Of a stretch of 64,000 nt of DNA, positions 8,173-45,868 are shown in pieces (the first letter of the stretch is position 1; the number at the start of each line of letters is the position of its first letter). The notes below the pieces were generated by a model. It ran no database searches and had not been told where the DNA came from. It was given only the letters and a program-made list of their open reading frames with translations. The stretch is from the NCBI RefSeq assembly GCF_900107165.1, contig NZ_FNOY01000012.1, forward strand, positions 1-64,000, written 5' to 3'. The stretch comes from Nitrosomonas halophila (GTDB taxonomy: Bacteria; Pseudomonadota; Gammaproteobacteria; Burkholderiales; Nitrosomonadaceae). The position numbers were made by a program, and so were the translations under genes.

Positions 8173-8294
8173 GATAATATGGCTAGGAGGCTGCGGCCAT
8201 CCAGACGCCTTTCAGCGGCAATGTATCACCGCCATGTACATGATGACATTGACGAATTGGGTCTAAACGGAAATTTCCAGACAGCGGCTCAGAT

Positions 8295-8855
8295 TCACAC
8301 CGAGACGACCCGGATATCCGGTTCGATCGTTCTCAGCAGCTGCTCTATCCCTCGCAATGTACCGGTGATTGAACTCGGGCATGTCCCGCAGGCACCCTGA
8401 TAGTGGATTTGCAGGACATTCTCCTCCAGACCGAGCACGTGCAGATCGCCACCGTCATGCTGCAAATAGGGCCGCACTTCCTCGTCCAGCAGTATATTGA
8501 TACGCTCCAGCCGCTGCCGGTCTGCCTCGCTGAGATTGGCCAGTCCCTCATTGGCTGCGGCTACGGTAGCGGCCGATTCATCGGTCGCAGCCGGAGCGGC
8601 GCGAATTGGATCAGCCACGGCCCGCGCGAGGTCTTGCCAGTCGGCTTCGCCATCCTGGGTAATGGTAATCCAGCGATCGACATAAAACACATTGGTGACA
8701 TGATCGATATCGAACAGGGCCGAGGCCAGTGGATCCTCTTCGGCTTGTTCGGGATTGTCATAAGAGCGCACAACACCCCAGGTAAGCGGCTCTTTCAAAA
8801 TGAATTTCAACGCGTTGGGATTCGGCGTCCCTTCTATTTCTGCAATTTTCGGCAT
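8295..8855 (-). CDS. nfu: Nfu-type Fe-S cluster carrier (Nfu_N plus NifU C-terminal domain)
   Basis: The protein has 186 residues. Residues 1-75 form the Nfu_N domain, recognisable by TPNPNALKFIL. A linker rich in Ala follows, then the NifU C-terminal domain (about 112-186) with the cluster-binding pair CGTC (C156, C159) in GACGTCPSS. Such proteins carry [4Fe-4S] clusters from the SUF scaffold to target enzymes. It is the last gene of the leftward suf operon, seven bases after sufU. Lipoyl synthase, a classic client of carrier proteins, is encoded at 23063. Confidence 0.9.
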   Translation of the reverse strand: MPKIAEIEGTPNPNALKFILKEPLTWGVVRSYDNPEQAEEDPLASALFDIDHVTNVFYVDRWITITQDGEADWQDLARAVADPIRAAPAATDESAATVAAANEGLANLSEADRQRLERINILLDEEVRPYLQHDGGDLHVLGLEENVLQIHYQGACGTCPSSITGTLRGIEQLLRTIEPDIRVVSV

Positions 8856-8862
8856 AAGCTTA

Positions 8863-9348
8863 TCAGTGATTGCTCACTGCCAGTTGTGCCGTATTGTCTT
8901 CATCGGTTTCAGTCGAAACAGCGACAACCGAATTCATGGCGGCATGCAGCGTATGCCATGGCAAAATGGCACACTTGACCCGCGTCGGCAAATCGCGCAC
9001 CCCTCCAAGCACCTTCAACCGACCAAGGTGATCGAGGTCGGCCGGATCGGAGCCGTCCACCACCATTTCACGAAACTCATTGACCAGTGTCTCGGCCTCC
9101 TGACGGGTCTTCCCCTTGACAGCGGCTGTCATCATCGAGCTGGAAGCTTTGCAAATCGCGCAGGATTCACCATGAAAAGCAATTTGCTCGATATGCTCGT
9201 CGGCTATCGTGAGATCCAGAGTGATACGATCGCCACAGAGCGGATTGTGCCCTACCGCATGATGGGTAGGGTGATCGAGTGAGCCGTAGTTACGCGGCTT
9301 GCGGTTATGATCAAGGATGACTTCCTGATAAATGGATTTCAAACTCAT
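8863..9348 (-). CDS. sufU: SufU-type sulfur acceptor / scaffold protein
   Basis: An IscU-fold protein of 161 residues with C38, D40, C63 and C126 (PLCGD, GESCAICKASSSMM, VKCAILPW). The SufU-type insertion lies between C63 and C126, and the IscU LPPVK motif is absent. In Gram-positive bacteria SufU is a zinc-dependent sulfurtransferase taking persulfide sulfur from SufS. The start overlaps the sufS stop by four bases, implying coupled translation. No SufE is in the operon, so SufU probably fills that role. Confidence 0.9.
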   Translation of the reverse strand: MSLKSIYQEVILDHNRKPRNYGSLDHPTHHAVGHNPLCGDRITLDLTIADEHIEQIAFHGESCAICKASSSMMTAAVKGKTRQEAETLVNEFREMVVDGSDPADLDHLGRLKVLGGVRDLPTRVKCAILPWHTLHAAMNSVVAVSTETDEDNTAQLAVSNH

Positions 9349-10604
9349 AGTGCGAAGACCTTTTGTACGGATCGAATGCCTGCCACCAGGGCATCGACCT
9401 CATCTCTGTTATTGTAAAAAGCAAATGATGCACGGGAAGTTGCCGGCACCTTGAAGCGTTCCATGATCGGTTGCGCACAATGGTGGCCCGTGCGCACGGC
9501 GATGCCTTCCTGGTTAAGCAGTGTACCGACATCATGGGGATGAATACCGTCAATGACAAACGAGATCACCGCAACTTTGTTCAGGCTGTTGCCAATGATG
9601 CGCACGCCCGGCATTGCCTGGATTTGCTCGGTTGCATAGCGCAGTAAATCATGTTCGTAGGCGGCGATATTATCGAGACCAATCTGATTCAGGTAATCGA
9701 TTGCGGCGCCGAAACCGATCGCTGCCGCAATCGGCGGCGTTCCCGCTTCGAATTTGTAAGGCAGTTCGTTATAAATCGTTTTCTCAAAAGTGACCGAGGC
9801 AATCATGTCCCCCCCACCTTTGTAGGGTTGCATCGCTTCCAGCAGATGTGCCTTGCCATAAAGCACTCCGATCCCTGTGGGGCCGAAGAGCTTATGCGCC
9901 GAGAATGCATAAAAATCGCAATCCAGCTCTTGCACATCGACTTGCAAATGAGGGGCGGCCTGCGCGCCATCGATCAAAACCGGAACACCATGTTGATGCG
10001 CAATGGCAATCATATCCTTGATCGGATTGATGGTGCCAAGCGCGTTCGACACATGCGAAAGGCCGACGAAGCGAGTCTTTGAATTGAAGAGCTTTTCGTA
10101 CGCCTCAACCAGCAATTCACCGCTGTCATTGATCGGCACAACCCGAATGTGGGCGCCCTTTTCTTCCGCCAGCATTTGCCAGGGCACTATGTTGGAATGA
10201 TGCTCCAGGGTCGTGAGGATGATTTCATCACCGCTCTGGATGAACTTGCGGCCGTAGCCGTGCATGACCAGATTGATGCTGTCAGTCGTCCCGCTGGTGA
10301 AGATCACTTCTTTCTCTTCCCGTGCCCCCATGAAATGCTGCAATTTACGGCGCGCATTTTCATATTCTTGCGTGGCCACTTCGGAAAGGTGGTGGACGGC
10401 ACGATGAATATTGGCATGCTGGGTCGTCTGGTAACGGACCAATCGATCAATGACAGCTTGCGGCATCTGACTGGAAGCGGCATTGTCCAGGTAGACAAGC
10501 GGCTTGTCACCGACCCGGATGCCGAGTATCGGGAAATCGGCGCGCAGATGCTGCATTGCCGTGGGTGTTGCCTGGGGAGTGAATAATGCTTCGACGCTTT
10601 TCAT
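9345..10604 (-). CDS. sufS: Cysteine desulfurase SufS
   Basis: A PLP enzyme of 419 residues that takes sulfur from cysteine, yielding alanine and an enzyme persulfide for Fe-S assembly. The PLP lysine is K238 in SAHKLFGPTG, and the persulfide cysteine is C376 in RTGHHCAQP, the group II desulfurase arrangement. Other motifs are VYLDNAASSQ (38-47) and the phosphate-binding TSGTTDSIN (103-111). It lies three bases downstream of sufD and overlaps sufU. Length is normal. Confidence 0.95.
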   Translation of the reverse strand: MKSVEALFTPQATPTAMQHLRADFPILGIRVGDKPLVYLDNAASSQMPQAVIDRLVRYQTTQHANIHRAVHHLSEVATQEYENARRKLQHFMGAREEKEVIFTSGTTDSINLVMHGYGRKFIQSGDEIILTTLEHHSNIVPWQMLAEEKGAHIRVVPINDSGELLVEAYEKLFNSKTRFVGLSHVSNALGTINPIKDMIAIAHQHGVPVLIDGAQAAPHLQVDVQELDCDFYAFSAHKLFGPTGIGVLYGKAHLLEAMQPYKGGGDMIASVTFEKTIYNELPYKFEAGTPPIAAAIGFGAAIDYLNQIGLDNIAAYEHDLLRYATEQIQAMPGVRIIGNSLNKVAVISFVIDGIHPHDVGTLLNQEGIAVRTGHHCAQPIMERFKVPATSRASFAFYNNRDEVDALVAGIRSVQKVFAL

Positions 10605-10607
10605 AGT

Positions 10608-11921
10608 TCAATTGACCTGTGTGCTGACAAGGACAAGTTTCTCAAGCTGCTGTTTGAGCGAAGCCACCGGAATGCGGTTGATGACTTCACCACCAAAGGC
10701 ATAGGTCAGCAGATTGCGGGCAGCGGCATCGGACAATCCCCTGCTTCGCAAATAAAACAGTGCTTCCTTGTCGAGTTGGCCGATCGTTGCCCCATGCGCG
10801 CATTTGACGTCATCCGCAAAAATTTCAAGCTGTGGCTTGGTGTCCACACGGGCCTTGTCCGATAGCAGCAGATTACGGCTCATTTGCCTGGAATCAGTCA
10901 GCTGGGCATGCGGGCGCACCATGATTTTTCCGCTGAATACTCCACGGGCACTATCATCGGCAATACATTTGTGAAGTTGCTGGCTTCTGCCATGCGGCTT
11001 GGCATGATCGATAAAGGTATGCGTATCGGCCAGTTGTTTGCCGGCTATGAGCGTCAGGCCATCAATGGCACATTCCGCATGCTCGCCCGCCAGCACGATA
11101 TTCTGACTGTAGCGTGAAATTTGGGCGCCAAGAGTCAGACTGACCGCACGATAACACGCATCCGGCGCAATGACGGTGGTATTGTTGGCAATATGAAATG
11201 CCTGCTGACTCTCGCGCTGGACACGCATATGCTGTACCTGCGCGGAACGGGCAAGATGCATTTCCATCACGGAATTGGTCAGATAGGCGGCATCCCGCAA
11301 CGCAACATATTCCTCGACCAGCGTCGCCCGAGCACCCGGCTCGGCAATCACCAAACACCTCGGGTAAGTTGTCTGTTCTGGCTGCGAGGTGATAAACAAG
11401 ACATGGATCGGCGCAGCCGCCGAGACATCGGCGGGAATGATGATCCCCACGCCATCATGGAGAAAAGCCGTATTCAACGCCACGAAAATGTCATCCTGAA
11501 AGTCCGCCAGCCGGCCCAGGTGATGCGCCACCGTGGCTGTGTGCTCGCGAGCCAGCGAAGACAGATTGCCGGCGATGACGCCACTGTCATGTTCGATGCT
11601 CGATAATTCAGCTGAGAATTGACCATCGACAAACACCACCCGATTCGGCACATCATCCAGCGTATAACGCGCGATATCGCTACCGGTTAAGCTTGAGGCA
11701 ACCGATGCCCGTGGAAAAAGCGCACTTTTTAGCGGCGTGATATCGGTAAAACGCCATTCTTCATCCCGTGTCGTGGGCAGTCTGAGCGCTTCGATACGGC
11801 CGGCTGCGCTGGTGCGCAACTGATCGAGCCAAGACATGGCAGGCATGGCGGAAGCAGCCGCTTCCGCTTTCCAGGACGCAATCAGTTGCGTGAGATAATC
11901 GTCTTTGATCACTGAACTCAT
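10608..11921 (-). CDS. sufD: Fe-S cluster assembly protein SufD
   Basis: The protein has 437 residues. It is the SufB paralogue that completes the SufBC2D scaffold. The C-terminal beta-helix region carries the family words [34 protein letters not shown] and FYLRSRGL. The start overlaps the sufC stop by four bases (ATGA), as do the other suf junctions. Length is typical for SufD, and it lacks the SufB-specific N-terminal features. Confidence 0.94.
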
Positions 11922-12712
11922 AATTGCGTTCCTAACGCACGCCCTGCCTCACTATGCAACCAGTCATAGCCATGGGTTTCGAGAGCAAGCGCGAGCTCTT
12001 TGCCACTCGTCTTGATAATGCGCCCGGCCTCCATCACATGCACATAATCGGGAACGATATAATCCAGCAAGCGCTGGTAATGCGTCACCAGAACGATCGC
12101 GTTATCTTTGTTGGCAAGCCGATTCACGCCATTTGCCACGATCTTGAGCGCATCGATATCGAGACCGGAATCGGTTTCATCCAGAATGGCCAACCTCGGC
12201 TCCAGCAGGGCCATTTGCAGAATCTCGTTACGTTTTTTCTCACCGCCGGAGAAACCTTCATTGACACTCCGGTCGAGAAAATCCGGCTTCATTTCGAGCT
12301 GTTTCATTTTTTCGCGCACGAAATCATCGAATTCCAAGGGATCGAGTTCCTCCTTGCCATGCTGCGCTTGCACAGTGTTGTATGCCAGCCGTAGAAACTG
12401 GTCATTGGCAACGCCGGGGATTTCGATCGGGTACTGAAATGCGAGGAACACGCCGGCACGCGCCCGTTCTTCCGGCGCCAGACTGGACAGATCCTGACCA
12501 TCGAGACGCACCGTGCCTTGGGTCATCTCATAAGCTGGGTGGCCCGCCAGCACCTTGGCAAAAGTGCTTTTTCCGGAACCATTCAACCCCATGATGGCAT
12601 GAATCTCGCCGCTTTTGACGGTAAAATCCACACCTTTGAGGATCTCCGTTCCATCAACGGTTGCATGCAGGTCACGGACTTCCAGCAATACTTTACTGTT
12701 CGGATCTATCAT
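11918..12712 (-). CDS. sufC: SUF ATPase SufC
   Basis: An ABC-type ATPase of 264 residues without a membrane domain. Walker A is GLNGSGKST, the signature is [11 protein letters not shown], and Walker B is [18 protein letters not shown]. It drives the conformational change of SufBC2D during cluster assembly in the cytoplasm. It overlaps both neighbours sufB and sufD by four bases, so these three are probably translated together in stoichiometric amounts. Confidence 0.96.
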
Positions 12713-31718: not shown

Positions 31719-33929
31719 TCAATTTGAGCGTGACAGAATAATGCCCGCCAATGGCGGCAGGGTTACGGCGATTGAATCATTCTGCCCCGACCAGGGTTCG
31801 CCAGTGGTCTCGAGGCTGCCGCCGTTACCGACATCACTGCCACCATAATAAGTGGAATCACTGTTGAATAGCTCGCGATACCGACCTGCTTCCGGCACAC
31901 CCACGCGGTAATCCATACGAGGCAATGGTGTGAAATTCAGGACAATCAGCACAAATGACCCATCTCGCGCCCGGCGCAGATAGCTGATGACCGATTGCTC
32001 GGCGTCATGACAATCGATCCAGCTAAAGCCTTCCGGGAAAAAATCCAGTTCATGCAGCGCCGGCATGGTCAGATATAGATGATTCAGATCGCGCGACAAC
32101 GTCTGCATGCCACGGTGTTGCACACGTTCCAGCAAATACCAGTCAAGCGGCTGACCAACGCCCCATTCCCTGCCCTGTGCGAATTCATTGCCCATGAAAT
32201 TGATTTTCTTGCCCGGACAGGTCATCTGATAAGCAAACAACAGACGCAGATTGGCGAACTTCTGCCAGGCATCGCCAGGCATTTTGTCCAGGAGCGATCT
32301 TTTGCCATGCACGACTTCATCATGCGAAAGCGGCAGAACAAAGTTTTCGGTATAGGCATAGAGCTGGTTAAAAGTCAGCTCGTTGTGATGATAGCGCCGG
32401 TGCACGGGATCATGTTGCATATAGCCTAATGTATCGTTCATCCAGCCCATGTTCCACTTCATGGAAAAGCCCAATCCTCCCAGATAGGCAGGACGCGAGA
32501 CCGCCGGCCAGGACGTGGACTCTTCGGCAAGCGTCAACGCGCCCGGGAATTCCCCGTGCACCATGGTGTTCAATTCTCGCAAGAATTCGATTGCCTCGAG
32601 ATTCTCCCGCCCCCCGAAGCGGTTGGGCAGCCATTCCCCCTCCTGGCGCGAATAATCCAGATAAAGCATCGAAGCGACCGCATCGACGCGCAAACCGTCA
32701 AGATGGAACCTCGTCAGCCAGTAATGCGCACTCGACAGCAAAAACGATTTGACCTCGTTGCGCCCGTAATTGAAGATATATGTCCCCCAATCATGATGAT
32801 AGCCCAGGCGCGGATCTTCATGCTCGTACAAGGCGGTGCCATCAAAACGTGCCAGCGAGAAACTGTCACAGGGAAAATGTGCGGGCACCCAATCGAGAAT
32901 CACACCGATGCCTGCCCGATGACAGGTATCCACAAAATACATGAAGTCCTCGGGCCGGCCAAAGCGGCTCGTTACGGCAAAGTAGCCGGTTGTCTGGTAT
33001 CCCCAGGATTCATCCAGCGGATGTTCCGATATCGGCAGCAACTCGACATGCGAATAACCCATGTCCGATAAATAGGGAACTAATTGATCGGCCAGTTCAC
33101 GGTAGGACAGGAAACTGCCATCGGGATGCCGTTGCCACGAACCCGCATGCATTTCATAAATATTCATCGGGGCATGCAGCCAGTCCCATGCCTCCCTGCG
33201 CCGCGTCATCCAGTCATCATCCTGCCAGTCAAAACGGCCTTGATTCGGTGTATACGCTGCATTGCTGGGGCGCAGCTCATGTCGGCTCGCGTACGGATCG
33301 GTTTTGAGCATGATCGCGCCGGTTGCCCGGTTGCGGATCTCATATTTGTACAACATGTCTGCGGGCAAATCCGGAATGAACAACTCCCATACCCCGCTGT
33401 CCGGATGGATCGACATTGGATAGGCACGCCCATCCCAGCGACAAAAGTCCCCGACGACACTTACCCGCTCGGCATTGGGTGCCCAGACCGCAAAACGGAT
33501 ACCGGTCACACCATGATTTTTTACCCGGTGCGCACCCAGCATGCGATAAGCCTGGTACAGACGCCCCTCATTGAACAAATACAAGTCATGGCTGGAAATC
33601 TGCATGGGGAAGGCATAGGGATCGTGGCACTCATCGATCGTCCGGGTTGCCGCATCCTCCAGGCGCAGCAAGTAGGGACGCGCCAGATGCTCACCTTCCC
33701 ATTCAAAGATCCCTGCCGGGTGCACACACCGCATCGGCTCAAAGCCAAAGGAAGTTTGAACCCAGACCCGCGACTTGTGGGGCTGAAACACCCTGACCAG
33801 CTTGCCACGCGGACTGTGGTGCATGCCCAGATAGGCACAGGGGTTATGCAGGCGCGCGGCCAGCAACAATGTTTGCAAGGAGTCACCCGTTTCGGCTGAT
33901 TGCATCGGTAATATGGATTCTGTTTGCAT
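31719..33929 (-). CDS. glgB: 1,4-alpha-glucan branching enzyme GlgB
   Basis: A GH13 enzyme of 736 residues. It has an extra N-terminal beta domain (about 25-120), a CBM48 (about 135-225) and a catalytic barrel. The nucleophile is D416 ([11 protein letters not shown]), the acid is E469 ([10 protein letters not shown]), and the conserved histidine lies in [12 protein letters not shown]. It adds alpha-1,6 branches to glycogen. It is divergent from glgC across 120 bases, so the two probably share control signals. Confidence 0.96.
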
Positions 33930-34049
33930 ACCCTACTTTATAACGCGCGCGAACGGCTGGCAATGATTATTGAGATCAAGTAAGATGAAGCGCAGTGATT
34001 CGAATGTACGGTATCACGCTGTGCGTGATCGCAATCCAGCGAGGAGACC

Positions 34050-35345
34050 ATGGACACCCAGCAAAGCCCCCAACCCAATTATTACCCACGTTTCGTCAGC
34101 GCCATTACCCGCAATACTCTTGCGTTGATTCTGGCAGGTGGACGGGGAACACGTCTCAAACATCTCACCGACTGGCGCGCCAAGCCGGCAGTACCGTTTG
34201 GTGGGAAGTTTCGTATCATAGACTTTGCCCTGTCCAACTGCGTCAATTCAGGTGTGCGCCGTATCGGCGTCGTCACCCAGTACAAGGCACAAAGCCTGAT
34301 CCGCCATATACAACGAGGCTGGAGTTTTCTGGACGGCCGGTTCAAGGAATTTGTCGAACTGCTGCCTGCCCAGCAGCGCACCGAAGAAACCTGGTATCAG
34401 GGCACCGCGGATGCGGTTTTCCAGAATCTTGACATTCTGCGCAGCCACAATTCCGACTATGTGCTGATTCTGGGTGGCGACCATATTTACAAGATGGATT
34501 ATGGCCGGCTGCTGGCCGAGCATGTCGAGAAGCGAGCGGATTTGACTGTCGCCTGCGTGGAAATTCCCGTCAGCGAAGCGAGCGCCTTCGGGGTCATGGA
34601 TGTCGATGACAATTGGCGCATCACCGCCTTCACCGAAAAACCAGAGCACCCCCCCTCGATCCCCGGACAACCCGACCTGGCTCTGGTCAGCATGGGCATT
34701 TATGTCTTCAATGCAAAATTTTTATATGAGCAACTGATACTCGACCATGATCTCGAACATTCGTCGCATGATTTCGGCAAGGACCTGATTCCCAGCCTGA
34801 TAAAAAATGCCAATGTTTATGCCCATCGCTTTCAGAACAGTTGCGTCAATATGGCATCGGGCACGCCCTACTGGCGGGATGTCGGCACGGTCGATGCCTA
34901 CTGGGAAGCCAATATCGACCTCACCACCATCACGCCGGATCTGAACTTGTACGATGAAGACTGGCCGATCTGGACACATCAGGAACAACTGCCCCCTGCC
35001 AAGTCTGTATTCGACGACGACAACCGGCGTGGTCAAGCACTGGATTCGATGGTATCGGGCGGATGTATCATCAGCGGCGCAACCGTGCGCCGCTCCCTGC
35101 TGTTTTCCAATGTCCAGGTCCGCAGTTTTGGCACCATCGAGGATTCAGTCATCCTGCCCAATGTTGACATAGGCCGGCATGCCTATCTCAAGCGGGTGAT
35201 CATCGAGAAAAGCTGTGTTATCCCTGAGGGGTTGAGAGTCGGATTCGATCGCGAAGAAGATCAAAAACGATTTTATGTCACCGAGAATGGCGTCACACTG
35301 ATCACGCCAGAAATGTTGGGGCAGCGCATTCATCAGATTCGCTGA
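34050..35345 (+). CDS. glgC: Glucose-1-phosphate adenylyltransferase GlgC
   Basis: The protein has 431 residues. It makes ADP-glucose, the committed step of bacterial glycogen synthesis. The nucleotide site is [34 protein letters not shown], the sugar site includes [11 protein letters not shown] and [11 protein letters not shown], and a C-terminal left-handed beta-helix carries [27 protein letters not shown] lies at a good distance before the ATG. Glycogen synthase (GlgA) is not in the window. Confidence 0.96.
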
Positions 35346-35510
35346 GGCTGATGGTCTGGCAGGTCGTTCGCGGCCAGCCACCCGAAATAAGACCGGAATT
35401 GAGAGCTGCCTTAAGCTTTAATTTATTTGATTCAATTTTAGTTTGCTTGCATGAGTTGTATTTTTCTATGCTGCTCGCAACAAACTTTTACAGACTTAGG
35501 TTGATAGACC

Positions 35511-37241
35511 ATGATACCTCATATCCCTAAACTCGATCTTGTCCTGCTGTGGCATATGCATCAACCCGATTACCGTGACAGTGAAACCGGCGAATTCGTA
35601 CTGCCCTGGGTTTACCTGCACGCGATCAAGGATTACACCGACATGGCCTACCATCTGGAAATGCACCCGGACATCAAGCTGGCCATCAATTTTGTGCCCA
35701 TCCTGCTGGACCAGCTGGAAGATTATGCCGATCAATTCGCCCATGGCGAAATCCGCGACCCGCTGCTGCGTCTGCTTGCTGCGCCCGATCTCGACCGGAT
35801 TTCGTTGTCCGAGCGCACCTTGATTCTGGAAAGTTGTTTCCTCAGCAATCATGAGACCATGCTCAAGCCATACCCGGCATACCAGTACCTGCGCAACCTG
35901 TACGACAATCTGCAACAACTTGGCGACAAGACGCTGCGCTATGCTTCGGGACAATACCTGGCCGACCTGCTGGTGTGGTACCACTTGGCGTGGACAGGGG
36001 AAAGTGTGCGCCGGGAAAATGCCAGTATCGTGCAGCTGATGTCGCAGGGTAAATTGTTCAGCTATGGCGACCGGTTGCGCTTGTTCAACCTGATTGGCGA
36101 ATTGATCCAGGCGCTCATTCCCCGCTATCGCAAGCTGGCACAGTCCGGGCAAATAGAACTTTCCACCACACCGCATTATCATCCGCTAGCCCCGCTGCTG
36201 ATTGATTTCACATCTGCGCGCGACAGTCTGCCAGAAGCCGTCCTCCCGCCTCATGCCAGCTATCCCGGTGGCCGGGAACGCGTATCTTTTCATTTGAAAT
36301 CGGCCAAGGACAGCCATACCCAGCGCTTTGGCGTCCAACCAGCCGGCATATGGCCGGCAGAGGGCGCGATCTCCGAACCGTTCCTGAACATCCTGATCGA
36401 AAATGATTGTCAATGGTGCGCCAGCGGCGAAGGGGTACTGGCCAACAGCCTGCGCAAATCCTTTCCGGACCAGCCATTGCCGGCTCGCAGCGATTATCTG
36501 TACCGTCCTTACAGCTTCAAAGCCGAGCATGGCAGCACTCTGTGCTTTTTCCGGGACGATCAATTATCCGATATGATCGGATTCGAATATTCAAAATGGT
36601 TCGGTCGGGATGCCGCCGAGAATTTTGTTCAGCGGCTTGAACAGATCCGGCATGAAGTCCACAGTCACCGCTCCGGCAACACCAACCCGGTTGCGAGCGT
36701 CATTCTTGACGGTGAAAATGCCTGGGAGTCCTATCCCTATAACGGATACTACTTCCTGAATGATCTTTACGAACTGCTTGAGAAGCACCCGCATATCCAG
36801 ACCACAACCTTTCAGGACTATATCGCAAAGCTCTCGCGGTCACGGACTGCCATCAAACCGTTACCTGCGCTGGCTGCGGGCAGCTGGGTATACGGCAGCT
36901 TCTCGACCTGGATCGGTGACCATGACAAAAACCTCGCCTGGGAATTACTCTGCGCAGCCAAGCAAAGCTATGATCTCGTCCTGCAGAGTCCGCGTTTGAC
37001 CAAAACAGAAAAGGCAGCCGCCGAACGGCAGCTCGCTTCCTGCGAGAGTTCCGACTGGTTCTGGTGGTTTGGTGACTACAATTCCCCCCATGCTGTCGAA
37101 AGCTTTGATCGGCTGTTCCGCGGAAATCTCACCAATCTTTATCGCTTGTTGAAAATTCCGGCACCGGTTACCGTGCTGGAACCGATCAGCCATGGCGGCC
37201 TTTCGGACAGCGACAGCGGTGCTATGCGGCGCGCCTCCTGA
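35511..37241 (+). CDS. Glycoside hydrolase family 57 protein
   Basis: The protein has 576 residues. GH57 motifs are HMHQPD (15-20), a GIWPAEGAISE stretch with the likely nucleophile-region Glu (E284), and SVILDGENAWE near residue 402. The fold would be a (beta/alpha)7 barrel followed by helices. Characterised GH57 enzymes include amylopullulanases, alpha-amylases and branching enzymes. I cannot tell the activity of this one. It has no signal peptide and so would act on cytoplasmic glucan. It lies between glgC and a second, different GH57 gene. Confidence 0.88.
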   Translation: MIPHIPKLDLVLLWHMHQPDYRDSETGEFVLPWVYLHAIKDYTDMAYHLEMHPDIKLAINFVPILLDQLEDYADQFAHGEIRDPLLRLLAAPDLDRISLSERTLILESCFLSNHETMLKPYPAYQYLRNLYDNLQQLGDKTLRYASGQYLADLLVWYHLAWTGESVRRENASIVQLMSQGKLFSYGDRLRLFNLIGELIQALIPRYRKLAQSGQIELSTTPHYHPLAPLLIDFTSARDSLPEAVLPPHASYPGGRERVSFHLKSAKDSHTQRFGVQPAGIWPAEGAISEPFLNILIENDCQWCASGEGVLANSLRKSFPDQPLPARSDYLYRPYSFKAEHGSTLCFFRDDQLSDMIGFEYSKWFGRDAAENFVQRLEQIRHEVHSHRSGNTNPVASVILDGENAWESYPYNGYYFLNDLYELLEKHPHIQTTTFQDYIAKLSRSRTAIKPLPALAAGSWVYGSFSTWIGDHDKNLAWELLCAAKQSYDLVLQSPRLTKTEKAAAERQLASCESSDWFWWFGDYNSPHAVESFDRLFRGNLTNLYRLLKIPAPVTVLEPISHGGLSDSDSGAMRRAS

Positions 37242-37325
37242 ATGGGATCATAACGATGGCCGGTCAAGATCCAGCCAAGCAGCAGAAACGATTGGACCAA
37301 TAACTTAGCCACAGGAAATTCTTCC

Positions 37326-39350
37326 ATGCCCCCATCCGTCTCGTTGCTTTTTGGCGTCCACGCACACCAGCCGATCGGCAATTTCCCCGAAGTCATCATG
37401 GACGCGCATGAACGCTGCTACAAACCTTTCTTGCAAACCTTGTACCGCTACCCGGAATTCCGTTTTGCGGTCCACTTTTCGGGCTGGTTGCTCGATTTTC
37501 TATTCGAGCACTTCCCGCAAGATATGGCCTTGCTACAGGACATGGTTGCACGCGGACAAATCGAACTCTTCGGTGCGGGCGAAACCGAACCGGTACTTGC
37601 TGTGATTCCCGAGCGGGATCGAATCGGCCAAATCAGAACTTTCTCTGCCAAGCTCAAGAAAAAACTGGGGCAACGGCCACAGGGCGCCTGGTTGACCGAG
37701 CGGGTTTGGGAATCCACCGTTATTCCTGCGCTGGCCGATTGCGGCATCCGCTATGTAATCGTCGATGACTATCACTTCATCTGCGCTGGCAAGGACAAAA
37801 CCGAACTCTCCGGCTATTTCACCACCGAGGAAGATCGCCGCAAACTCGACCTCTTCCCCATTTCCGAGGCATTGCGCTACAAACTGCCGTTTTCTCCGGC
37901 GCCGGATGCGGTCAGCTATATCGAATCCCTGGCAGATCAGCTGCCAGGTGGACGGCAACCCGCAGCCATTTATTTCGACGATATCGAGAAATTCGGCATC
38001 TGGCCGGAAACCCATAAATGGGTCTACGAACAGGGCTGGCTGGAACAATTCATTCAGGGCGTGCTCGCTTCCCCCCATATTACCCCCCGGCACTACCGGG
38101 ATTACCATGCCAGCGAGCAGACCTGCGGGATCATCTACCTCCCCACCGCTTCCTATATCGAAATGAGTGAATGGACGCTGCCCGCCGCGCCGGCCCATAT
38201 CTATGCCGACCTCGTGCAGCAGGCCAAAGCGGAAGGATGGTACGAGCAAAACAAACCCTTTATACGCGGCGGCATCTGGAAGAATTTTTTTTCGCGCTAT
38301 CCGGAATCCAACTGGATGCATAAGCGCATGCTGGGGCTTTCCGCCCGTTTTGCCAAATTGCCGGCAACACAGCGAACGGAAAGCATGCAGCAATGCCTAT
38401 ATGCCGCCCAGGCCAATGACGCCTACTGGCATGGCCTGTTTGGTGGCCTCTATCTGCCTCATCTGCGGCGCGCAATCTATAACAATCTAATTGAACTGGA
38501 AGCCTTGCTGGATGCAAGCTCACCACGCTCATCTCTATTTATCGAGGATACCGATCTGGATGGCGTAGAAGAAATTTATCTGCACAACACCACCCTGCAA
38601 GCCGTATTGAAACTTGACGGCAGCGCCAGCATATGTGAACTCGACGCCTATCCGCTCAAGCATAACTTCGCCGATACCCTGGCTTGCCAGCCGGAGCATT
38701 ACCATCGCAAGATTCAGCTGAACGCCCAACAAAACTCGACCCATCACGATACCGGTATTGCTTCGGCGCATGACCGCATCAGTTTCAAACATGAAATTCA
38801 CCCCATCGACCTGGAGCCGGACCCCCACGCACAATTTTTGTTTATCGACCGGCTGAATGACAGCCTGTTGACGCGTTATCTGCACCAGCCCTCTGACAGC
38901 GGTGAAGTCATTTTTCAGACTGCATCCGGTCAAATTTCAGTCAAAAAACAGATCCAGATCGCTGACCACCAGCTGATCGTGCTGTACGACCTGGCTGGCG
39001 ACACGGCCGGAGCGCTGATGCATACCGAAATCAATCTGGCCATGCCCAGCTGCGACGGCCCAGCCGGGCGCTATCGTCAGCATGAAACCATACTTTCTGG
39101 CTTCGGCCAGCCACTCGAACTGGCCGCGCTGACCGTCATCACCCTTGAGGACGACACCCTGCAAGGCGATCTGACGCTGACCACATCGCAAGCGGTACGG
39201 CTTCTGGCACGCCCGCATTTCACCGTTTCCCAATCGGAGGGAGGATTCGAAAAAATCATGCAGGCAGTCAAATTGACGCTCAGCTGGCCGGCATCCATTC
39301 AACGGCAGACCATTTCCCTGCAATACAAGCCACGAAACAGCACCAGCTGA
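37326..39350 (+). CDS. GH57 4-alpha-glucanotransferase / alpha-amylase-like enzyme
   Basis: The protein has 674 residues. HAHQPIGNF (13-21) opens the GH57 barrel. E88 in GETEPVLAVIPERD matches the nucleophile region of archaeal 4-alpha-glucanotransferase, and D218/D219 in YFDDIEKFGIWP match the acid. The C-terminal half (about 390-674) is a beta-rich domain like DUF1925/DUF1926 of those enzymes. It probably disproportionates or debranches linear glucans in the cytoplasm. It is unlike the GH57 protein upstream, so the pair is not a recent duplication. Confidence 0.88.
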   Translation: MPPSVSLLFGVHAHQPIGNFPEVIMDAHERCYKPFLQTLYRYPEFRFAVHFSGWLLDFLFEHFPQDMALLQDMVARGQIELFGAGETEPVLAVIPERDRIGQIRTFSAKLKKKLGQRPQGAWLTERVWESTVIPALADCGIRYVIVDDYHFICAGKDKTELSGYFTTEEDRRKLDLFPISEALRYKLPFSPAPDAVSYIESLADQLPGGRQPAAIYFDDIEKFGIWPETHKWVYEQGWLEQFIQGVLASPHITPRHYRDYHASEQTCGIIYLPTASYIEMSEWTLPAAPAHIYADLVQQAKAEGWYEQNKPFIRGGIWKNFFSRYPESNWMHKRMLGLSARFAKLPATQRTESMQQCLYAAQANDAYWHGLFGGLYLPHLRRAIYNNLIELEALLDASSPRSSLFIEDTDLDGVEEIYLHNTTLQAVLKLDGSASICELDAYPLKHNFADTLACQPEHYHRKIQLNAQQNSTHHDTGIASAHDRISFKHEIHPIDLEPDPHAQFLFIDRLNDSLLTRYLHQPSDSGEVIFQTASGQISVKKQIQIADHQLIVLYDLAGDTAGALMHTEINLAMPSCDGPAGRYRQHETILSGFGQPLELAALTVITLEDDTLQGDLTLTTSQAVRLLARPHFTVSQSEGGFEKIMQAVKLTLSWPASIQRQTISLQYKPRNSTS

Positions 39351-39363
39351 AAGTGCGTGCACT

Positions 39364-39897
39364 TCACATCCCAATGGGCTCGTCGGCATGGTCCACAAAA
39401 ATCAAACCGGTGGTGTCGAAACCCAGCGCATTCGCCTGCGTGATAAATTCCTCGATGATTGCCCTGTCAATCTGTGGCGATCTTGCCAGCAGCCATAGAT
39501 AAGAAGTGTCCGGCCCTGTGACAAAAGCGTATTGATAATTCTGCTTATCCAGTGCGAACACCACGTAGGATCCATAAAATGGTCCCCAGAAAGATACTTT
39601 CAAATAACCCTGTTCCGGATTTCTGACAAAATAAGCTCTGCCCTCGGCTTCCTTCCATCTATTTTCGCTGGCTGAATAGCCGCGATTGATCACCCGGACG
39701 CCGCCATCCTGATGCAGGGAATATTCCGCCGTCACGTTATCGAGTCCGCGCTCAAAAGAATGATCAAGACGAGCGATTTCGTACCATTTGCCCAGATATC
39801 GGTCCAATTCAAACTCATCCACCGGGCGCACCCCTTCGGGGTAACCCAGACAGCCACTCAGCAACAGGATAAACACGATATGCAGATATCGGCACAT
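39364..39897 (-). CDS. blc: Outer-membrane lipocalin (Blc-like lipoprotein)
   Basis: The protein has 177 residues. The lipoprotein signal ends LLLSGC (C16). The lipocalin hallmark RYLGKWYEIARLDHSFERGL follows, with the later words FWGPFYGSYVVFALD and YLWLLARSPQ. It binds lipids at the envelope. I start at the ATG at 39897, which has GAAGGAGA before it; an open frame 28 codons longer has no family match. It is opposite in direction to the carbohydrate genes around it and probably independent of them. Confidence 0.92.
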   Translation of the reverse strand: MCRYLHIVFILLLSGCLGYPEGVRPVDEFELDRYLGKWYEIARLDHSFERGLDNVTAEYSLHQDGGVRVINRGYSASENRWKEAEGRAYFVRNPEQGYLKVSFWGPFYGSYVVFALDKQNYQYAFVTGPDTSYLWLLARSPQIDRAIIEEFITQANALGFDTTGLIFVDHADEPIGM

Positions 39898-40113
39898 AAA
39901 CAAATCTCCTTCAAAGCATGATTCGATCACCTGCTGACGCCTTGCGCCAACCCGGTTTGGATTGAGAAAAAATATTGACACAACTTTACCTTTTTGCGTT
40001 CGCAGTAAAATTTTGATACGCTCAAGCCAGAATCGTTAACAACGATACGCCGCCAGCCTGCCTTGCAGACCAAACCGCAAGACTGGCCATGCCTGCATTT
40101 GAGGAACCGTGAC

Positions 40114-42804
40114 ATGACGAATGAATTTCAGCGTCTCAGGCAATGCGATCAAGATAATATACCCTGGAAAAAATGGGGGCCTTATCTGAGCGAACGGCAA
40201 TGGGGTACCGTCCGTGAGGACTATAGCCCAGATGGAGAAGCCTGGCAGTATTTTCCGCATCTCCAGTCCACGGCCCGCGCTTACCGCTGGGGCGAGGATG
40301 GATTGGCCGGGATCAGCGATGATCGGCAGCGGCTCTGCTTCGCACTCGCCCTGTGGAATGGACGAGACCCGGTATTGAAAGAACGACTGTTTGGTTTGAC
40401 CGGCACACAAGGCAACCATGGTGAGGATGTCAAGGAATACTACTTCTACCTGGATGCAACCCCTACCCACAGCTATCTCAAATACCTCTACAAGTATCCG
40501 CAAGCGCCCTTTCCCTACGAAGATCTGGTCACCACCAACAGCCAGCGCTCCAAACACCAGCCAGAATATGAATTATTGGATACCGGTATTTTTGCAGAGA
40601 ATCGTTACTTCGATATTTTTGTGGAATACGCCAAAGCGGATCCTGAAAATATTCTGATTCAAATCAGCGTGGTCAATCGTGGCCCCGAAGCAGCACAGCT
40701 GCGCGTATTACCGACACTGTGGTTTCGCAATACCTGGTCATGGGAACCCGATGCAGCCAAACCGTTACTCAAGCAATGCCAGAGAGAAGGCGGGAACCCA
40801 GCCGCACTGGCCAGCCATCACCAGTTGGGTGATTACCAGTTGTTCTGCGCGGATAATCCCGATCTGCTGTTCACTGACAATGAAACCAATGCCCAGCACC
40901 TGTTTAATGGCACCAATGAGAATCCCTATGTGAAAGACGGGATCAATCAGTTTGTCCTGCATGGCAATAAGGCTGCGGTGAATGCCGACGGTTGCGGCAC
41001 CAAGATGGCGGCTGATTATGCCCTGCTCATTGCAGCCGGGGAAACGCAGATCATCAGGTTGCGGCTGGCCCGGGCAGGAAGCATTGCAACAGGCGCCGCC
41101 TTTACTGATTTTGAAACGGTTTTCGATTTACGGCGACGGCAGGCCGATCATTTTTATGAACAGCTGTCTGGCGACAAACTGGACACCGAAAGACAGCGCC
41201 TGCTGCGACAAATGCTGGCAGGTATGCTCTGGACCAAGCAATACTATGAATTCGATGTCGGACGCTGGCTGGATGAGCATCACGGCCAGGCCACCCGCAA
41301 TGCTGACTGGGGACATATGAAAAACCGGGATATCCTTTCCATGCCCGACAAATGGGAATACCCCTGGTACGCAGTCTGGGACACGGCCTTCCATACGCTG
41401 CCGCTGGCCATGGTGGATCCGGTTTTTGCCAAGCACCAGCTGAGTTTGTTTCTGGAGGCGCGCTACTTACACCCAAGTGGACAAATGCCAGCTTACGAGT
41501 GGAATTTTAGTGATGTCAATCCACCCGTCCATGCCTGGGCAACATATGCTGTATATCAAATCGACCGTGAGTCCCGTGGCCAGGGCGATCTCGCCTTCCT
41601 GCAAAGCGCTTTTGCCGGCCTGGAACGCAACTTTCACTGGTGGGAAACACGCAAGGGACCAGATGGGAATGTTTATCAGGGAGGATTTCTCGGCCTGGAC
41701 AATATCGGTGTATTTGACCGCAGCCATGCGCTGCCTACCGGTGGCCACCTGGAACAATCCGACGGCACTGCCTGGATGACCCTGTATGCGCAGAACATGC
41801 TGCAAATCGCGCTGGAATTGAGCCTGCATGACTTAAACTACGAACCAAAGGTAACCGCTTACCTGGATCATTTTCTGGCAGTTGCCGCGGCCATGCATGA
41901 CATCGGCAGCGAGCACCGGGATATGTGGGACGAGGAGGATGGCTTTTTTTATGATGTCCTGCGCTTTCCGGATGGCCACTCGACCCGCCTGAGAATACGC
42001 TCGCTGGTTGGGTTATTGCCTTTATGTGCCGTGACCGTGATCGAACAGAGCACCTTGCAAAAACTTCCTCAGGTCGCGGCACGCTTCGAGGCGTTGGTCA
42101 GGCATAAGAATCATTTGACGGCTGACATTTTCTGTCCGATTAAACCCGGCATGGCGGGCCGTCGTTTGCTGGCAGTCCTGGATGAGGAAAAATTACGCAG
42201 GGTCCTGGCGAGATTGCTGGACGAACAAGAGTTCCTGAGTCCTTATGGCATACGATCACTTTCCAAATATCATCAGGCGCATCCCTACCACTTTCACTGG
42301 CAGGATCAAACGTTCACGGTAAGCTACCAGCCAGGCGAATCGGACTCTTATATGTTCGGCGGCAACTCCAATTGGCGAGGGCCGGTGTGGATACCGGCCA
42401 ATATCCTGATCATACGCGCGCTCTTATCCCTGTACACTTATTATGGGGATGATTTTCAGATCGAATGTCCGACCACAACGGGCACCCCATGCAATCTATT
42501 CCAAATCGCCGAAATGATTGCCGAACGGTTGTTTCGCATCTTTTTGCCGGATGCACAGGGAAGGCGGGCGGTTTTTGGGGGGAGCGAGAAATTTCAAACA
42601 GATCCGCATTGGCATGATCACCTGTTGTTTTATGAGTATTTTCATGGCGAGGATGGGTCCGGATTGGGCGCCAGCCATCAAACCGGCTGGACTGGCGCGC
42701 TGGCCACCTTGCTCACAATCTTCGGCTCACTGGCGCCGGCAGATTTGTCAGCCGCCGGCATGCAGCGGGTCACAGCCAGCCTGGCATCGACAAGTACCTC
42801 ATGA
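40114..42804 (+). CDS. GH63-like glucosidase (MGH1-type (alpha/alpha)6 glycoside hydrolase)
   Basis: The protein has 896 residues. After an N-terminal region specific to large bacterial members (EDYSPDGEAWQYFPHLQSTARAYRWGEDGLAGI), the C-terminal half resembles the GH63 alpha-glucosidase toroid, with PWYAVWDTAFHTLPLAMVDP, MPAYEWNFSDVNPPVHAWA, HLEQSDGTAWM and GPVWIPANILIIRAL. It has no signal peptide, so it probably cleaves cytoplasmic glucosyl compounds and releases glucose. The ATG at 40114 has GAGGAA before it. An ATG at 40063 would add 17 residues. Confidence 0.85.
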   Translation: MTNEFQRLRQCDQDNIPWKKWGPYLSERQWGTVREDYSPDGEAWQYFPHLQSTARAYRWGEDGLAGISDDRQRLCFALALWNGRDPVLKERLFGLTGTQGNHGEDVKEYYFYLDATPTHSYLKYLYKYPQAPFPYEDLVTTNSQRSKHQPEYELLDTGIFAENRYFDIFVEYAKADPENILIQISVVNRGPEAAQLRVLPTLWFRNTWSWEPDAAKPLLKQCQREGGNPAALASHHQLGDYQLFCADNPDLLFTDNETNAQHLFNGTNENPYVKDGINQFVLHGNKAAVNADGCGTKMAADYALLIAAGETQIIRLRLARAGSIATGAAFTDFETVFDLRRRQADHFYEQLSGDKLDTERQRLLRQMLAGMLWTKQYYEFDVGRWLDEHHGQATRNADWGHMKNRDILSMPDKWEYPWYAVWDTAFHTLPLAMVDPVFAKHQLSLFLEARYLHPSGQMPAYEWNFSDVNPPVHAWATYAVYQIDRESRGQGDLAFLQSAFAGLERNFHWWETRKGPDGNVYQGGFLGLDNIGVFDRSHALPTGGHLEQSDGTAWMTLYAQNMLQIALELSLHDLNYEPKVTAYLDHFLAVAAAMHDIGSEHRDMWDEEDGFFYDVLRFPDGHSTRLRIRSLVGLLPLCAVTVIEQSTLQKLPQVAARFEALVRHKNHLTADIFCPIKPGMAGRRLLAVLDEEKLRRVLARLLDEQEFLSPYGIRSLSKYHQAHPYHFHWQDQTFTVSYQPGESDSYMFGGNSNWRGPVWIPANILIIRALLSLYTYYGDDFQIECPTTTGTPCNLFQIAEMIAERLFRIFLPDAQGRRAVFGGSEKFQTDPHWHDHLLFYEYFHGEDGSGLGASHQTGWTGALATLLTIFGSLAPADLSAAGMQRVTASLASTSTS

Positions 42805-42903
42805 CCAGGTTACTCCTCATACCTGCTCACGGTTCAGTCCCGGGATGGGCCGATCCATGCACATGATCCGAAGATATGAAATCCTCTAGCCGATAATGCA
42901 ATC

Positions 42904-43455
42904 ATGACAACCGAAGCATGCTCTCGTCAGCCCATCAATCGCGGCCGCGTCATCATACTCTGCGGCGTTTCAGGTTCTGGCAAGTCCACTGTGGGACAGG
43001 CCTTGGCCAAACGCCTGGGCTGGCACTTCATCGAAGGAGACAGTTTTCACCCGCACACGAACATCGCCAAAATGCAGCGCAACGAGCCGCTGAATGATAG
43101 CGACCGGGAACCCTGGCTGTACCGCCTACGGGACGAAATCAAGAATTGCCTGGCCCAGGAAAATCAGACCGTCCTCGCTTGCTCGGCGCTCAAAGCCCGC
43201 TATCGCGCAATTTTGTGCCTGGACTGCCGGGTGAATTTCGTGTTTCTCATCGGCAAACATGATCTATTGCGGCAGCGCCTGACTCAGCGCGCTCAGCATT
43301 TTATGGGCCCTGATTTGTTAAACAGCCAACTGGATACACTGGAATTACCGCAGCATGGCCTGATCGTCGATATCAATCAGCCGGTTCCAGTCATCGTTGA
43401 ATTGATTGTGAGCTGGCTTGCCTCGAAGAAAAATGGCTGTCAGCGGCCTGGCTGA
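42904..43455 (+). CDS. gntK: Gluconokinase
   Basis: The protein has 183 residues with P-loop GVSGSGKST (21-29). It has the gluconate-site pattern HFIEGDSFHPHTNIAKMQRNEPLNDSDREPWL and ALKARYRAILC. It phosphorylates D-gluconate to 6-phosphogluconate. The genes just downstream could produce gluconate from glucose, giving it a local substrate. Element D (43520) separates it from them. Confidence 0.93.
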   Translation: MTTEACSRQPINRGRVIILCGVSGSGKSTVGQALAKRLGWHFIEGDSFHPHTNIAKMQRNEPLNDSDREPWLYRLRDEIKNCLAQENQTVLACSALKARYRAILCLDCRVNFVFLIGKHDLLRQRLTQRAQHFMGPDLLNSQLDTLELPQHGLIVDINQPVPVIVELIVSWLASKKNGCQRPG

Positions 43456-43519
43456 GAATTATTCACAGGCGCAATATAAATAGCAATCAACCGGGCTTGT
43501 CAGGATCACGCACCACGTC

Positions 43520-43690
43520 TAAGGGCTCGTTAATGAATACTTGAGCATACGCTGGGGTTGTTGCGTATTCGGGCATCTGCGGCGTTGCGAGGCTTGCGAA
43601 TGGAACGACCATTCGGCTGCGCCTCTCGCCTTGCATCTTTCCCGAATACGTAACAACGTATGCCCAAGTTATTCATTAACGAGCCCTAAT
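43520..43690 (+). repeat. MITE-like element, family 2, copy D
   Basis: The element is about 165 bp flanked by TAA on both sides (43520-43522, 43688-43690). Its ends are GGGCTCGTTAATGAAT and ATTCATTAACGAGCCC, perfect inverted repeats. Its reverse complement aligns with much of the copy at 45512-45785. The Shine-Dalgarno of the SMP-30 gene begins just after the right TAA. Confidence 0.85.
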
Positions 43691-43704
43691 AGGAGGCAGC
43701 ATTT

Positions 43705-44550
43705 ATGCATTTGGAAACAGATATTCTTCTGACTGGTCTCGCTTTTCCGGAATCACCACGCTGGCGGGAGGATCGCTTGTGGTTCACCGATCAGCATGCC
43801 CGAAAAATCATGACCGTAACCGCGGATGGCGAAGCGGAATGCGTCCTGCAGACCCAAGATCTGCCAGGTGGGCTGGGCTGGCTGCCGGATGCGACCTTAC
43901 TGGTTGTCGCCATGACCGAGCGCGCGCTTTACCGCCTGACCGGATCAGGTCTGGAAAGATATGCCGACCTTTCCACTTTGGCGCCCTTTCACTGCAATGA
44001 CATGGTGGTCACCAGTAACGGTCGGGCCTATGTCGGCAACTTTGGCTTTGATCTGCATGCGGGCGCGACGATTGCCAGCACTCGTCTTGTCCTGGTCGAA
44101 CCGGATGGCTCTTGCCGGCTGACTGCCTCCGACCTGATTTTCCCCAATGGCAGCAGCATCACTCCGGATGGCATGACATTCATCGTTGCAGAAACCTTTG
44201 CCCATCGCCTGACAGCGTTTACCATCGATGACACTGGCTCACTTCACGCCCCCAGACTCTGGGCTGATCTTGATCAGGCCACACCAGATGGCATCTGTTT
44301 AGATGCCGAAGGGGCGTTATGGGTGGCGAGCCCTGGCACCCGGGAAGTGATTCGAGTCAGGCAGGGAGGCGTAATTACCACAAGCATTCGTCCCCTTGGA
44401 ACACCGTATGCCTGCATGCTCGGCGGCCATGACCGCCAGACATTGTTCATACTGACCGCTGAAACAGACGATCCTGGACAAGCCAATACGCTACGTTCAG
44501 GCCGCATAGAAATCGCGACAGTGAATGTGCCCGGCACCGGGCTGCCGTAG
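43705..44550 (+). CDS. SMP-30/gluconolactonase family protein
   Basis: A six-bladed propeller protein of 281 residues. Motifs are LAFPESPRWREDRLWFTDQ (with the metal-binding Glu), FHCNDMVVTSNGRAYVGNFGFD, LIFPNGSSITPDGMTFIVAETF and ATPDGICLDAEGALWVAS (metal-binding Asn/Asp). Members hydrolyse sugar lactones such as gluconolactone with a divalent cation. The context of a dehydrogenase after it and gluconokinase before it supports this role. The ribosome site AGGAGG (near 43692) directly abuts MITE-like element D. Confidence 0.85.
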   Translation: MHLETDILLTGLAFPESPRWREDRLWFTDQHARKIMTVTADGEAECVLQTQDLPGGLGWLPDATLLVVAMTERALYRLTGSGLERYADLSTLAPFHCNDMVVTSNGRAYVGNFGFDLHAGATIASTRLVLVEPDGSCRLTASDLIFPNGSSITPDGMTFIVAETFAHRLTAFTIDDTGSLHAPRLWADLDQATPDGICLDAEGALWVASPGTREVIRVRQGGVITTSIRPLGTPYACMLGGHDRQTLFILTAETDDPGQANTLRSGRIEIATVNVPGTGLP

Positions 44551-44577
44551 TTTTCTCAGCAATATAATGGAGGAATC

Positions 44578-45393
44578 ATGTCCAAGAAAAATGATAAACC
44601 ACTGGCCGGACAGCGTGCGCTGATCACTGGCGGCAGTTCTGGTATCGGCGCGGCAATTGCGCGCGCCATGGCCGAGGCTGGCGCCCGGGTAGCGGTCAAC
44701 CATCTGTCCGCCCCCGAAGCCGCGCACAGTGTGGTTGATGCCATCTTGGCAAATGGTGGCAAGGCACTGGCGATTCAGGCGGATGTCAGTCAGGCGGCAC
44801 AAGTCAAGGCTATGTTCCAGAAAGTGATTCAAACCTGGGGCAGTCTTGATATTCTCGTGACCAACGCCGGCATTCAGGATGATGCACCCTTCACTGAAAT
44901 GACTTTATCGCAATGGGAGAAAGTGCTGGCGGTCAATCTGACCGGACAGTTCCTATGTGCGCAGGAAGCGGTCAAGTCGTTTCTGCATCGTGGGATTGTG
45001 CCAGAACTGTCCAGCGCCGCCGGCAAAATCATTTGCATTTCTTCCGTTCATGACATTATTCCCTGGTCCGAACGCGTCAATTACGCAGCCTCCAAGGGCG
45101 GGCTGCTCATGTTCATGAAAAGCCTGGCTCAGGAAGTCGCCCACCAAAAAATCAGAGTCAATGCTATTTCACCCGGCGCGATCCGCACGGCGATCAACCG
45201 TGCTGCCTGGGAGACACCCGATGCGGAAGCGGCGCTACTCAAGCTGATACCCTATGAGCGCATCGGAGAGACGCTGGATATCGCGCGGGCCGCAGTCTGG
45301 CTGGCTTCCGACGCCTCCGATTATGTCATCGGCACAACGCTCTACGTAGACGGCGGCATGACTTTGTATCCGGCGTTTCGGGCAGGCGGATAA
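44578..45393 (+). CDS. SDR-family oxidoreductase, glucose 1-dehydrogenase-like
   Basis: A classical short-chain dehydrogenase of 271 residues. The cofactor site is TGGSSGIGAAIA (17-28), NAG is present (96-98), and the catalytic residues are S156, Y169 and K173 (YAASKGG). It resembles glucose 1-dehydrogenases (beta-D-glucose to gluconolactone), which fits the adjacent lactonase and gluconokinase, but SDR substrate cannot be fixed from sequence. An IIPWSERVNYAASKGG stretch supports the assignment. It starts 27 bases after the SMP-30 gene with GGAGG upstream. Confidence 0.82.
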   Translation: MSKKNDKPLAGQRALITGGSSGIGAAIARAMAEAGARVAVNHLSAPEAAHSVVDAILANGGKALAIQADVSQAAQVKAMFQKVIQTWGSLDILVTNAGIQDDAPFTEMTLSQWEKVLAVNLTGQFLCAQEAVKSFLHRGIVPELSSAAGKIICISSVHDIIPWSERVNYAASKGGLLMFMKSLAQEVAHQKIRVNAISPGAIRTAINRAAWETPDAEAALLKLIPYERIGETLDIARAAVWLASDASDYVIGTTLYVDGGMTLYPAFRAGG

Positions 45394-45511
45394 ACCGCCG
45401 CCGCAGCTGTATTCACCACGCTTGCCTGGCGCCGTTATCTCGCATTGTCATACCAGCAGGTGCGACAATTTGTCACATGGTCCCGGCAACCATTTTACGT
45501 TATTGTTGCCC

Positions 45512-45785
45512 TAAGGGCTCGATAATGAATAATAACTTGGACATACGTTGTGACGTATTCGGGAAAGATGTAAGGCGCGAGGCTTGCGAATGATCATTCC
45601 ATTCGCAAGCCTCGCAACGCAGCAGATGCCCGAATACGCAACAACCCTTCGGGCTGGGGTCGCTTTTGGCGCATACCGGCGTTGCAGGCCACTTGTTGTG
45701 AATGACACGGCGGCGTGTCTTGCGCTTTGGTCTGCGCCAAAAGCGACCCCAGCGTATGCTCAAGTTATTCATTAACGAGCCCTAA
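45512..45785 (-). repeat. MITE-like element, family 2, long copy E
   Basis: The element is about 268 bp flanked by TAA (45512-45514, 45783-45785). It lies in the opposite orientation to copy D. It carries an extra internal segment of about 100 bp bounded by 20-bp perfect inverted repeats: CTGGGGTCGCTTTTGGCGCA at 45654-45673 and its complement at 45733-45752. A second palindrome centres on GAATGATCATTC near 45590. It ends only two bases before an in-frame ATG upstream of regB. Confidence 0.82.
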
Positions 45786-45868
45786 GCATGCAATTTGTGC
45801 TGCTCCATACACACGACACACCATCCAGCCAAGAAATCCAGGATAATCAGAACTACAGAACACGAACC

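Follow-up and report, generated by a model that had tools for sequence, protein, structure and literature searches.

A glycogen gene block of Nitrosomonas halophila with a probable gluconate shunt parallel to glucokinase

The first 64,000 nucleotides of contig NZ_FNOY01000012.1 of Nitrosomonas halophila (NCBI RefSeq assembly GCF_900107165.1), hereafter the window, carry a block in which glgB, glgC, two unlike glycoside hydrolase family 57 (GH57) genes, a GH63-like glycosidase gene (GH63L), a gluconokinase gene (gntK), an SMP-30 family lactonase gene and the gene of a glucose-dehydrogenase-type short-chain dehydrogenase/reductase (SDR) all lie within 14 kb. This block is probably the glycogen block of a Nitrosomonas species to which a gluconate shunt is attached, running in parallel with glucokinase. 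The gene content, family membership, co-location and co-occurrence given below were computed. They agree with a preliminary description of this DNA, which had listed the same genes: the open reading frames (ORFs) lie where it had placed them and each matches its family, so that the roster was correct, except for a Blc-type lipocalin gene that it had left out.

As for the gluconate route, its activities, substrates, direction, physiology and co-transcription are what we infer, and the scheme runs as follows: GlgC and GlgB, with GlgA encoded elsewhere, would make the α-glucan; the two GH57 enzymes would shorten and rearrange its chains; and the cytoplasmic GH63L would split off terminal glucose. 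The SDR would then convert the freed glucose to gluconolactone with NAD(P), the SMP-30 protein would open the lactone, and GntK would yield 6-phosphogluconate, which most likely enters the pentose phosphate pathway as ribulose 5-phosphate via an NAD-type 6-phosphogluconate dehydrogenase (Gnd). Such an outlet would supply reducing power and Calvin-cycle pentoses under ammonia shortage; since the gluconate route makes no glucose 6-phosphate, the freed glucose would be committed to oxidation.

The dehydrogenase and its partners in other genomes

The SDR (44578..45393, plus strand) is of the Bacillus glucose 1-dehydrogenase type: among the NCBIfam families, NF006493 "glucose-1-dehydrogenase" ranked top with 277 bits and NF005559 "glucose 1-dehydrogenase" passed its cut-off (239 bits against 215), and the Bacillus NAD(P) glucose 1-dehydrogenases of structures 1gco and 1rwb matched over the full length with ∼212-217 bits, having the catalytic S/Y/K region and an SSVHxxIPW stretch in common with it. 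Ten SDRs from other loci gave the same two top NCBIfam families.

Three window proteins were each searched in one set of 300 genomes of the order (SDR at E ≤ 1e-60, GH63L at E ≤ 1e-100, GntK at E ≤ 1e-15), with matches in 20, 22 (two of them partial) and 65 genomes, respectively. Leaving aside the locus under study, a glucose-releasing glycosidase adjoins 16 of 19 SDR loci, covering 12 of the 15 genera by label; Pfam and NCBIfam served to name representatives, and the remaining members were assigned to those by tblastn. The partners differ: five genomes have the SDR beside GH63L together with a GMC oxidoreductase and a GDE_C gene of the type found in glycogen debranching enzymes; six have it directly adjoined by a trehalase-like GH15 gene; four have a glucodextranase-like GH15 gene directly upstream; and one has a GH100 invertase gene. 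The same glycosidase queries found nothing in 20 control windows (fixed-position 20-kb windows of a wider set, 18 at 1,000,001 and 2 at 300,001), a contrast that is flattered by the queries having been picked after viewing the SDR neighbourhoods, and no glycosidase was found in 20 GntK neighbourhoods that we picked from 66 GntK matches.

The genes also occur together, in counts that draw on non-independent genomes, several of them of one genus. SDR and GH63L share 9 genomes (expected 1.47, p 1.1e-6; 8 of 19, p 6.8e-6, with the own genome left out). With GntK, the 15 genomes whose SDR has at least 55% identity, a split set after the identities were seen, overlap in 11 (expected 3.25, p 1.6e-5; 10 of 14, p 5.3e-5, with the own genome left out), the five with SDRs at 45-49% identity overlap in 0, and all 20 SDR genomes overlap in 11 (p 7e-4); GH63L and GntK are found together in 10 (expected 4.77, p 0.008). 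The gnd gene stands directly beside gntK in 9 of the 20 GntK neighbourhoods, to which the SDR-bearing genomes contribute 4 out of 10 and the remaining ones 5 out of 10; this adjacency ties GntK to Gnd and not specially to the SDR, and it was rejected as SDR-specific support.

In public genomes, the 80 named GH63L loci, the best of at least 590 stretches, include 21 that we counted as cyanobacterial by title. An SDR of at least 40% identity lies on the same strand within 2.5 kb in 7 of these 80 loci, namely six cyanobacterial ones and L089. In three cyanobacterial loci GH63L, SDR and an SMP-30 gene stand together, and a further locus has SMP-30 without the SDR; these four SMP-30 proteins have 22-26% identity to that of the window. 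In L089, a record labelled Planctomycetota, GH63L (67% identity) and the SDR (72%) stand in one row at 7412-12583 with a GH13 gene between them, which suggests that a GH63L-GH13-SDR module was transferred between phyla and perhaps moves as a unit.

A wider reading, which we hold tentatively and as somewhat less probable than its negation, is that SDR and glycosidase form a recurrent hydrolyse-then-oxidise module, shared by the order sampled here and cyanobacteria, by which stored carbohydrate would be oxidised apart from the glucose 6-phosphate pool, inverting (α/α)6-barrel partners handing over β-D-glucose; in this Nitrosomonas, fusion with gntK, the lactonase gene and the row of glycogen genes would have made it a full pathway for starvation. 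GH15, GH63-like, GDE_C and GH100 are (α/α)6-barrel families that differ in sequence and substrate, and GH63, GH133-type GDE_C and GH100 are anomer-inverting. GH15 enzymes are anomer-inverting as well (PMC12446779), and the SDR-type glucose dehydrogenase acts on β-D-glucose (PMC8062543). Partner glycosidases that release the β form would suit the SDR. The GH13 gene that separates GH63L from the SDR in L089 belongs to a retaining family.

Gluconokinase, lactonase and the GH63-like enzyme

Regarding the two steps after the dehydrogenase, GntK (42904..43455, plus strand) is a gluconokinase by TIGR01313 (162 bits, cut-off 114) and matches the gluconate kinase structures 3t61, 4eun and 1knq. The SMP-30 protein (43705..44550, plus strand), a probable gluconolactonase, belongs to PF08450 (158 bits, cut-off 26); its best natural structure match is 7plb with 66 bits, regucalcin and gluconolactonases being weaker, and its E16, N148 and D195, like the ND at positions 98-99, face identical letters in the alignment to 7plb. 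E16, N148 and D195 are candidate metal ligands.

GH63L (40117..42804, plus strand), the probable glucose-releasing step, is a cytoplasmic GH63-like (MGH1-like) glycosidase that matches PF22422 (86 bits, cut-off 27) and the GH63 family PF03200 (37 bits, cut-off 22); among solved structures, a sequence search reaches only the Chaetomium endoplasmic reticulum (ER) α-glucosidase I (E 0.003). An AlphaFold model built from 48 natural sequences had a mean pLDDT (predicted local distance difference test) of 84 and a pTM (predicted template modelling score) of 0.90, and in Foldseek it placed ER α-glucosidase I at ranks 1-15 and E. coli YgjK at ranks 16-23, with TM scores for the former of 0.53-0.56 by query and 0.61-0.65 by target, that is, a GH63 fold. 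In comparison with these two GH63 enzymes the fold is alike, whereas identity is 10-14% and GH63L has no signal-peptide-like N-terminus. E840 and D528, candidates for the catalytic acid and base residues, are invariant in 48 homologues, and the E840 region aligns weakly with the Chaetomium enzyme. On the strength of the model, GH63L is likely an α-glucosidase, and a glycogen-derived substrate is suggested by its glg neighbours within the genus and the debranching-type neighbour in other families.

The shunt could also be real and draw its glucose from trehalose, glucosylglycerate or another soluble α-glucoside, with GH63L as a stress-linked solute hydrolase and not a glycogen-linked enzyme. 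The Pfam family PF22422 is mannosylglycerate-hydrolase-like; the GH15 genes beside SDRs elsewhere score best with trehalase models, yet below their cut-offs, and both of those scanned have a trehalase-like N-terminal domain; and the GH100 invertase, a sucrose enzyme, adjoins two SDRs. A literature search by title and abstract found no described glycosidase-SDR stress operon. We consider this origin of the glucose unlikely, as GH63L sits in a glgC-GH57-GH57 row within the genus, adjoins the GDE_C gene in five further members of the order and has an oligosaccharide-trimming α-glucosidase as its nearest solved fold.

Remaining steps in the genome

The own genome comprises 3.2 Mb in 156 contigs and is 99.2% complete. 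Its search, which the preliminary description had advised, placed glgA (566 bits, cut-off 328) on another contig, just behind an ORF read by eye as glucose-6-phosphate isomerase. Glucokinase is encoded at full length and scores 280 bits (cut-off 225), and TIGR02094 picks out two glucan phosphorylases, at 839 and 869 bits against a cut-off of 192. The zwf gene (479 bits against 401) adjoins a gnd of the NAD type, which scores 410 bits with TIGR00872 (cut-off 297), and has a transaldolase near. That glgA and glgP are absent from the window, as had been noted, is correct: both lie on other contigs. A supposed lack of phosphorylase was rejected, since TIGR02093 is below cut-off in this genome but TIGR02094 gives the two. 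The edd gene was not found (best match 254 bits against a cut-off of 708), the match overlapping an ORF that looks by eye like dihydroxy-acid dehydratase, and an Entner-Doudoroff outlet is unsupported; with gnd beside zwf, 6-phosphogluconate would most likely go via Gnd.

Because glucokinase, phosphorylases and zwf are all encoded, the gluconate route would be parallel to glucokinase, and not the bypass that had been proposed: that wording did not survive, and a bypass as a necessity was rejected. The sequence of conversions itself, from glucose through gluconolactone and gluconate to 6-phosphogluconate, finds comparative support in the Bacillus-type SDR, the neighbouring glycosidases and the co-occurrence with GntK. 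Glucokinase is present in 15 of 16 same-genus genomes examined, the own included. By contrast, zwf and gnd are patchy in the genus: both have matches in 6 of 16 same-genus genomes, the own again included (one zwf match is a fragment), and neither was found in a single-contig genome of the genus.

Organisation of the block and conservation in the genus

The block begins with glgB, the 1,4-α-glucan branching enzyme gene (31719..33929, minus strand; PRK05402 1007 bits, cut-off 741), followed on the plus strand by glgC for ADP-glucose pyrophosphorylase (34050..35345; PRK00725 694 bits, cut-off 470) and by the genes of GH57a, an amylase-like or chain-trimming enzyme (35511..37241; PF03065 175 bits, solved GH57 chain 9jlq 265 bits), and GH57b, of the 4-α-glucanotransferase type (37326..39350; PF03065, PF09094 and PF09095, structure 1k1w 438 bits). 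In a simple hydropathy scan, the glucan enzymes have no signal-peptide-like N-terminus, in line with what had been noted. Next come the lipocalin gene blc (39364..39981, minus strand), GH63L, gntK, a palindromic repeat element (43518..43690), the SMP-30 and SDR genes, and behind the latter a second copy of the repeat in the opposite orientation (45510..45786). A scan for promoters and terminators was no richer than shuffled sequences (13 against 10.5 and 14 against 14.4).

Within the genus, the glycogen part of this order recurs. GH63L is present in 8 of 41 genomes including the own, 6 of these 8 being among 25 same-genus genomes; in four of the five other same-genus genomes with GH63L it follows glgC-GH57a-GH57b directly, with glgB divergent, in the place where blc splits the row in the window, and the fifth has GH63L without the glg row. 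One of the four, G021, has a second GH63L copy adjoining a GH13 gene and ∼4 kb from glk (L091:7062-16388).

The gluconate part, on the other hand, looks like a local gain: the SDR (E ≤ 1e-60) occurs in 3 of 37 same-genus genomes and GntK in 1 of the 8 of the order sample, the own counted in both and being the only one for GntK, and neither SDR nor gntK was found beside GH63L elsewhere in the genus, in four glg-type and two other loci. In the same-genus genome G051, a 61% SDR belongs to a gene row that also holds a transaldolase, zwf, gnd and a ROK-family protein, a GH100 invertase gene being ∼2 kb off (L112:6319-15642); in another genome, G042, a 48% SDR adjoins a GH15 gene.

The repeat resembles a miniature inverted-repeat transposable element; its copies of 173 and 277 bp share ∼88% of their letters over 136 bp and lie on either side of the SMP-30-SDR pair, an arrangement that fits a gain of this pair, and its position between gntK and the SMP-30 gene means that these two may lie on separate transcripts. 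One repeat end recurs in the own genome behind a transaldolase gene (L114:8270-8304). Among 17 window genes measured, G+C is highest in the two bracketed ones (0.573 and 0.571, the others 0.495-0.551), with ordinary G+C at third codon positions; the signal is too weak as proof of a foreign origin.

Weighing the gluconate shunt

Several observations weigh against a gluconate shunt attached to the glycogen block. The 277 bits of the SDR are below the NF006493 cut-off of 420, and of the C-terminal glucose contacts of the B. megaterium enzyme, as listed in PMC8062543, it keeps the alanine alone. No glycosidase was found with these queries near 3 of the 19 other SDR loci; no GntK was found in the vicinity of those 19 or of the 80 named GH63L loci, 73 of which are without a nearby SDR of the kind counted above, though many of their contigs are short. 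In the four glg-type GH63L loci of the genus (18.5-19.9 kb each), gntK, SMP-30 and SDR had no match. Since blc and the repeat interrupt the block, a single transcript is doubtful, and glucokinase and the phosphorylases render the gluconate route dispensable.

That gntK, lactonase and SDR are neighbours by chance or insertion, serving another sugar or general stress and unlinked to the glucan block, seems improbable: the repeats around the G+C-rich lactonase-SDR pair, the relatives without the three genes at this place, the break made by blc and a 66-bit match to 7plb that does not let the SMP-30 substrate be predicted would all fit it, but the SDR is co-located with glycosidases and co-occurs with them and with GntK, and GH63L and SDR are contiguous with GH13 in L089 and with SMP-30 in three cyanobacterial loci.

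Comparison with known systems

The gluconate shunt preferred here has a precedent in obligate methanotrophs, in which Rozova et al. 2021 described NAD-preferring SDR glucose dehydrogenases and GntK (PMC8062543). In the results of that study drawn on here, gluconate built up in gntK/glk mutants and glucose in gdh/glk mutants, growth of the gdh single mutant was unchanged and GntK activity was not found in extracts; the authors concluded that glucose from glycogen enters via the gluconate shunt. The concept is thus established in methanotrophs, and the idea of the preliminary description is not new. Its presumed lithoautotroph fits what is generally known of the physiology of Nitrosomonas. A literature search found no title or abstract describing a gluconate route in this genus, and a term search of a flux model of N. 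europaea (PMC8853641) gave no occurrence of glycogen, glucokinase or glucose dehydrogenase. What is new is the organism that bears the route, its joining to the glycogen block, the likely supply of glucose by a GH63-like enzyme and the repeated pairing of glycosidase with dehydrogenase.

For the survival of ammonia oxidisers under ammonia starvation, the locus offers a concrete route by which stored glucan could become reducing power and Calvin-cycle pentoses without glucose 6-phosphate. In addition, it suggests a probable physiological role for the ∼900-residue GH63-like family and for the SDR clade found beside glycosidases.

The closest counterpart is Methylotuvimicrobium alcaliphilum 20Z which, according to the portion of PMC8062543 that treats it, likewise combines an SDR glucose dehydrogenase and GntK with a non-sugar lifestyle, a parallel glucokinase and glycogen as the glucose source, its gntK lying close behind an amylase gene. 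It differs in being a methanotroph with an open Entner-Doudoroff outlet, in which glucose presumably arises via GlgP, GlgX and MalQ, and the same portion of that paper does not report a glg row that includes gdh and gntK along with genes of a GH63-like enzyme and a lactonase. The classical route through GlgP, glucokinase and Zwf is likewise encoded in the own genome and likewise ends in 6-phosphogluconate; it passes through glucose 1- and 6-phosphate, whereas the gluconate route would reach the same product without both.

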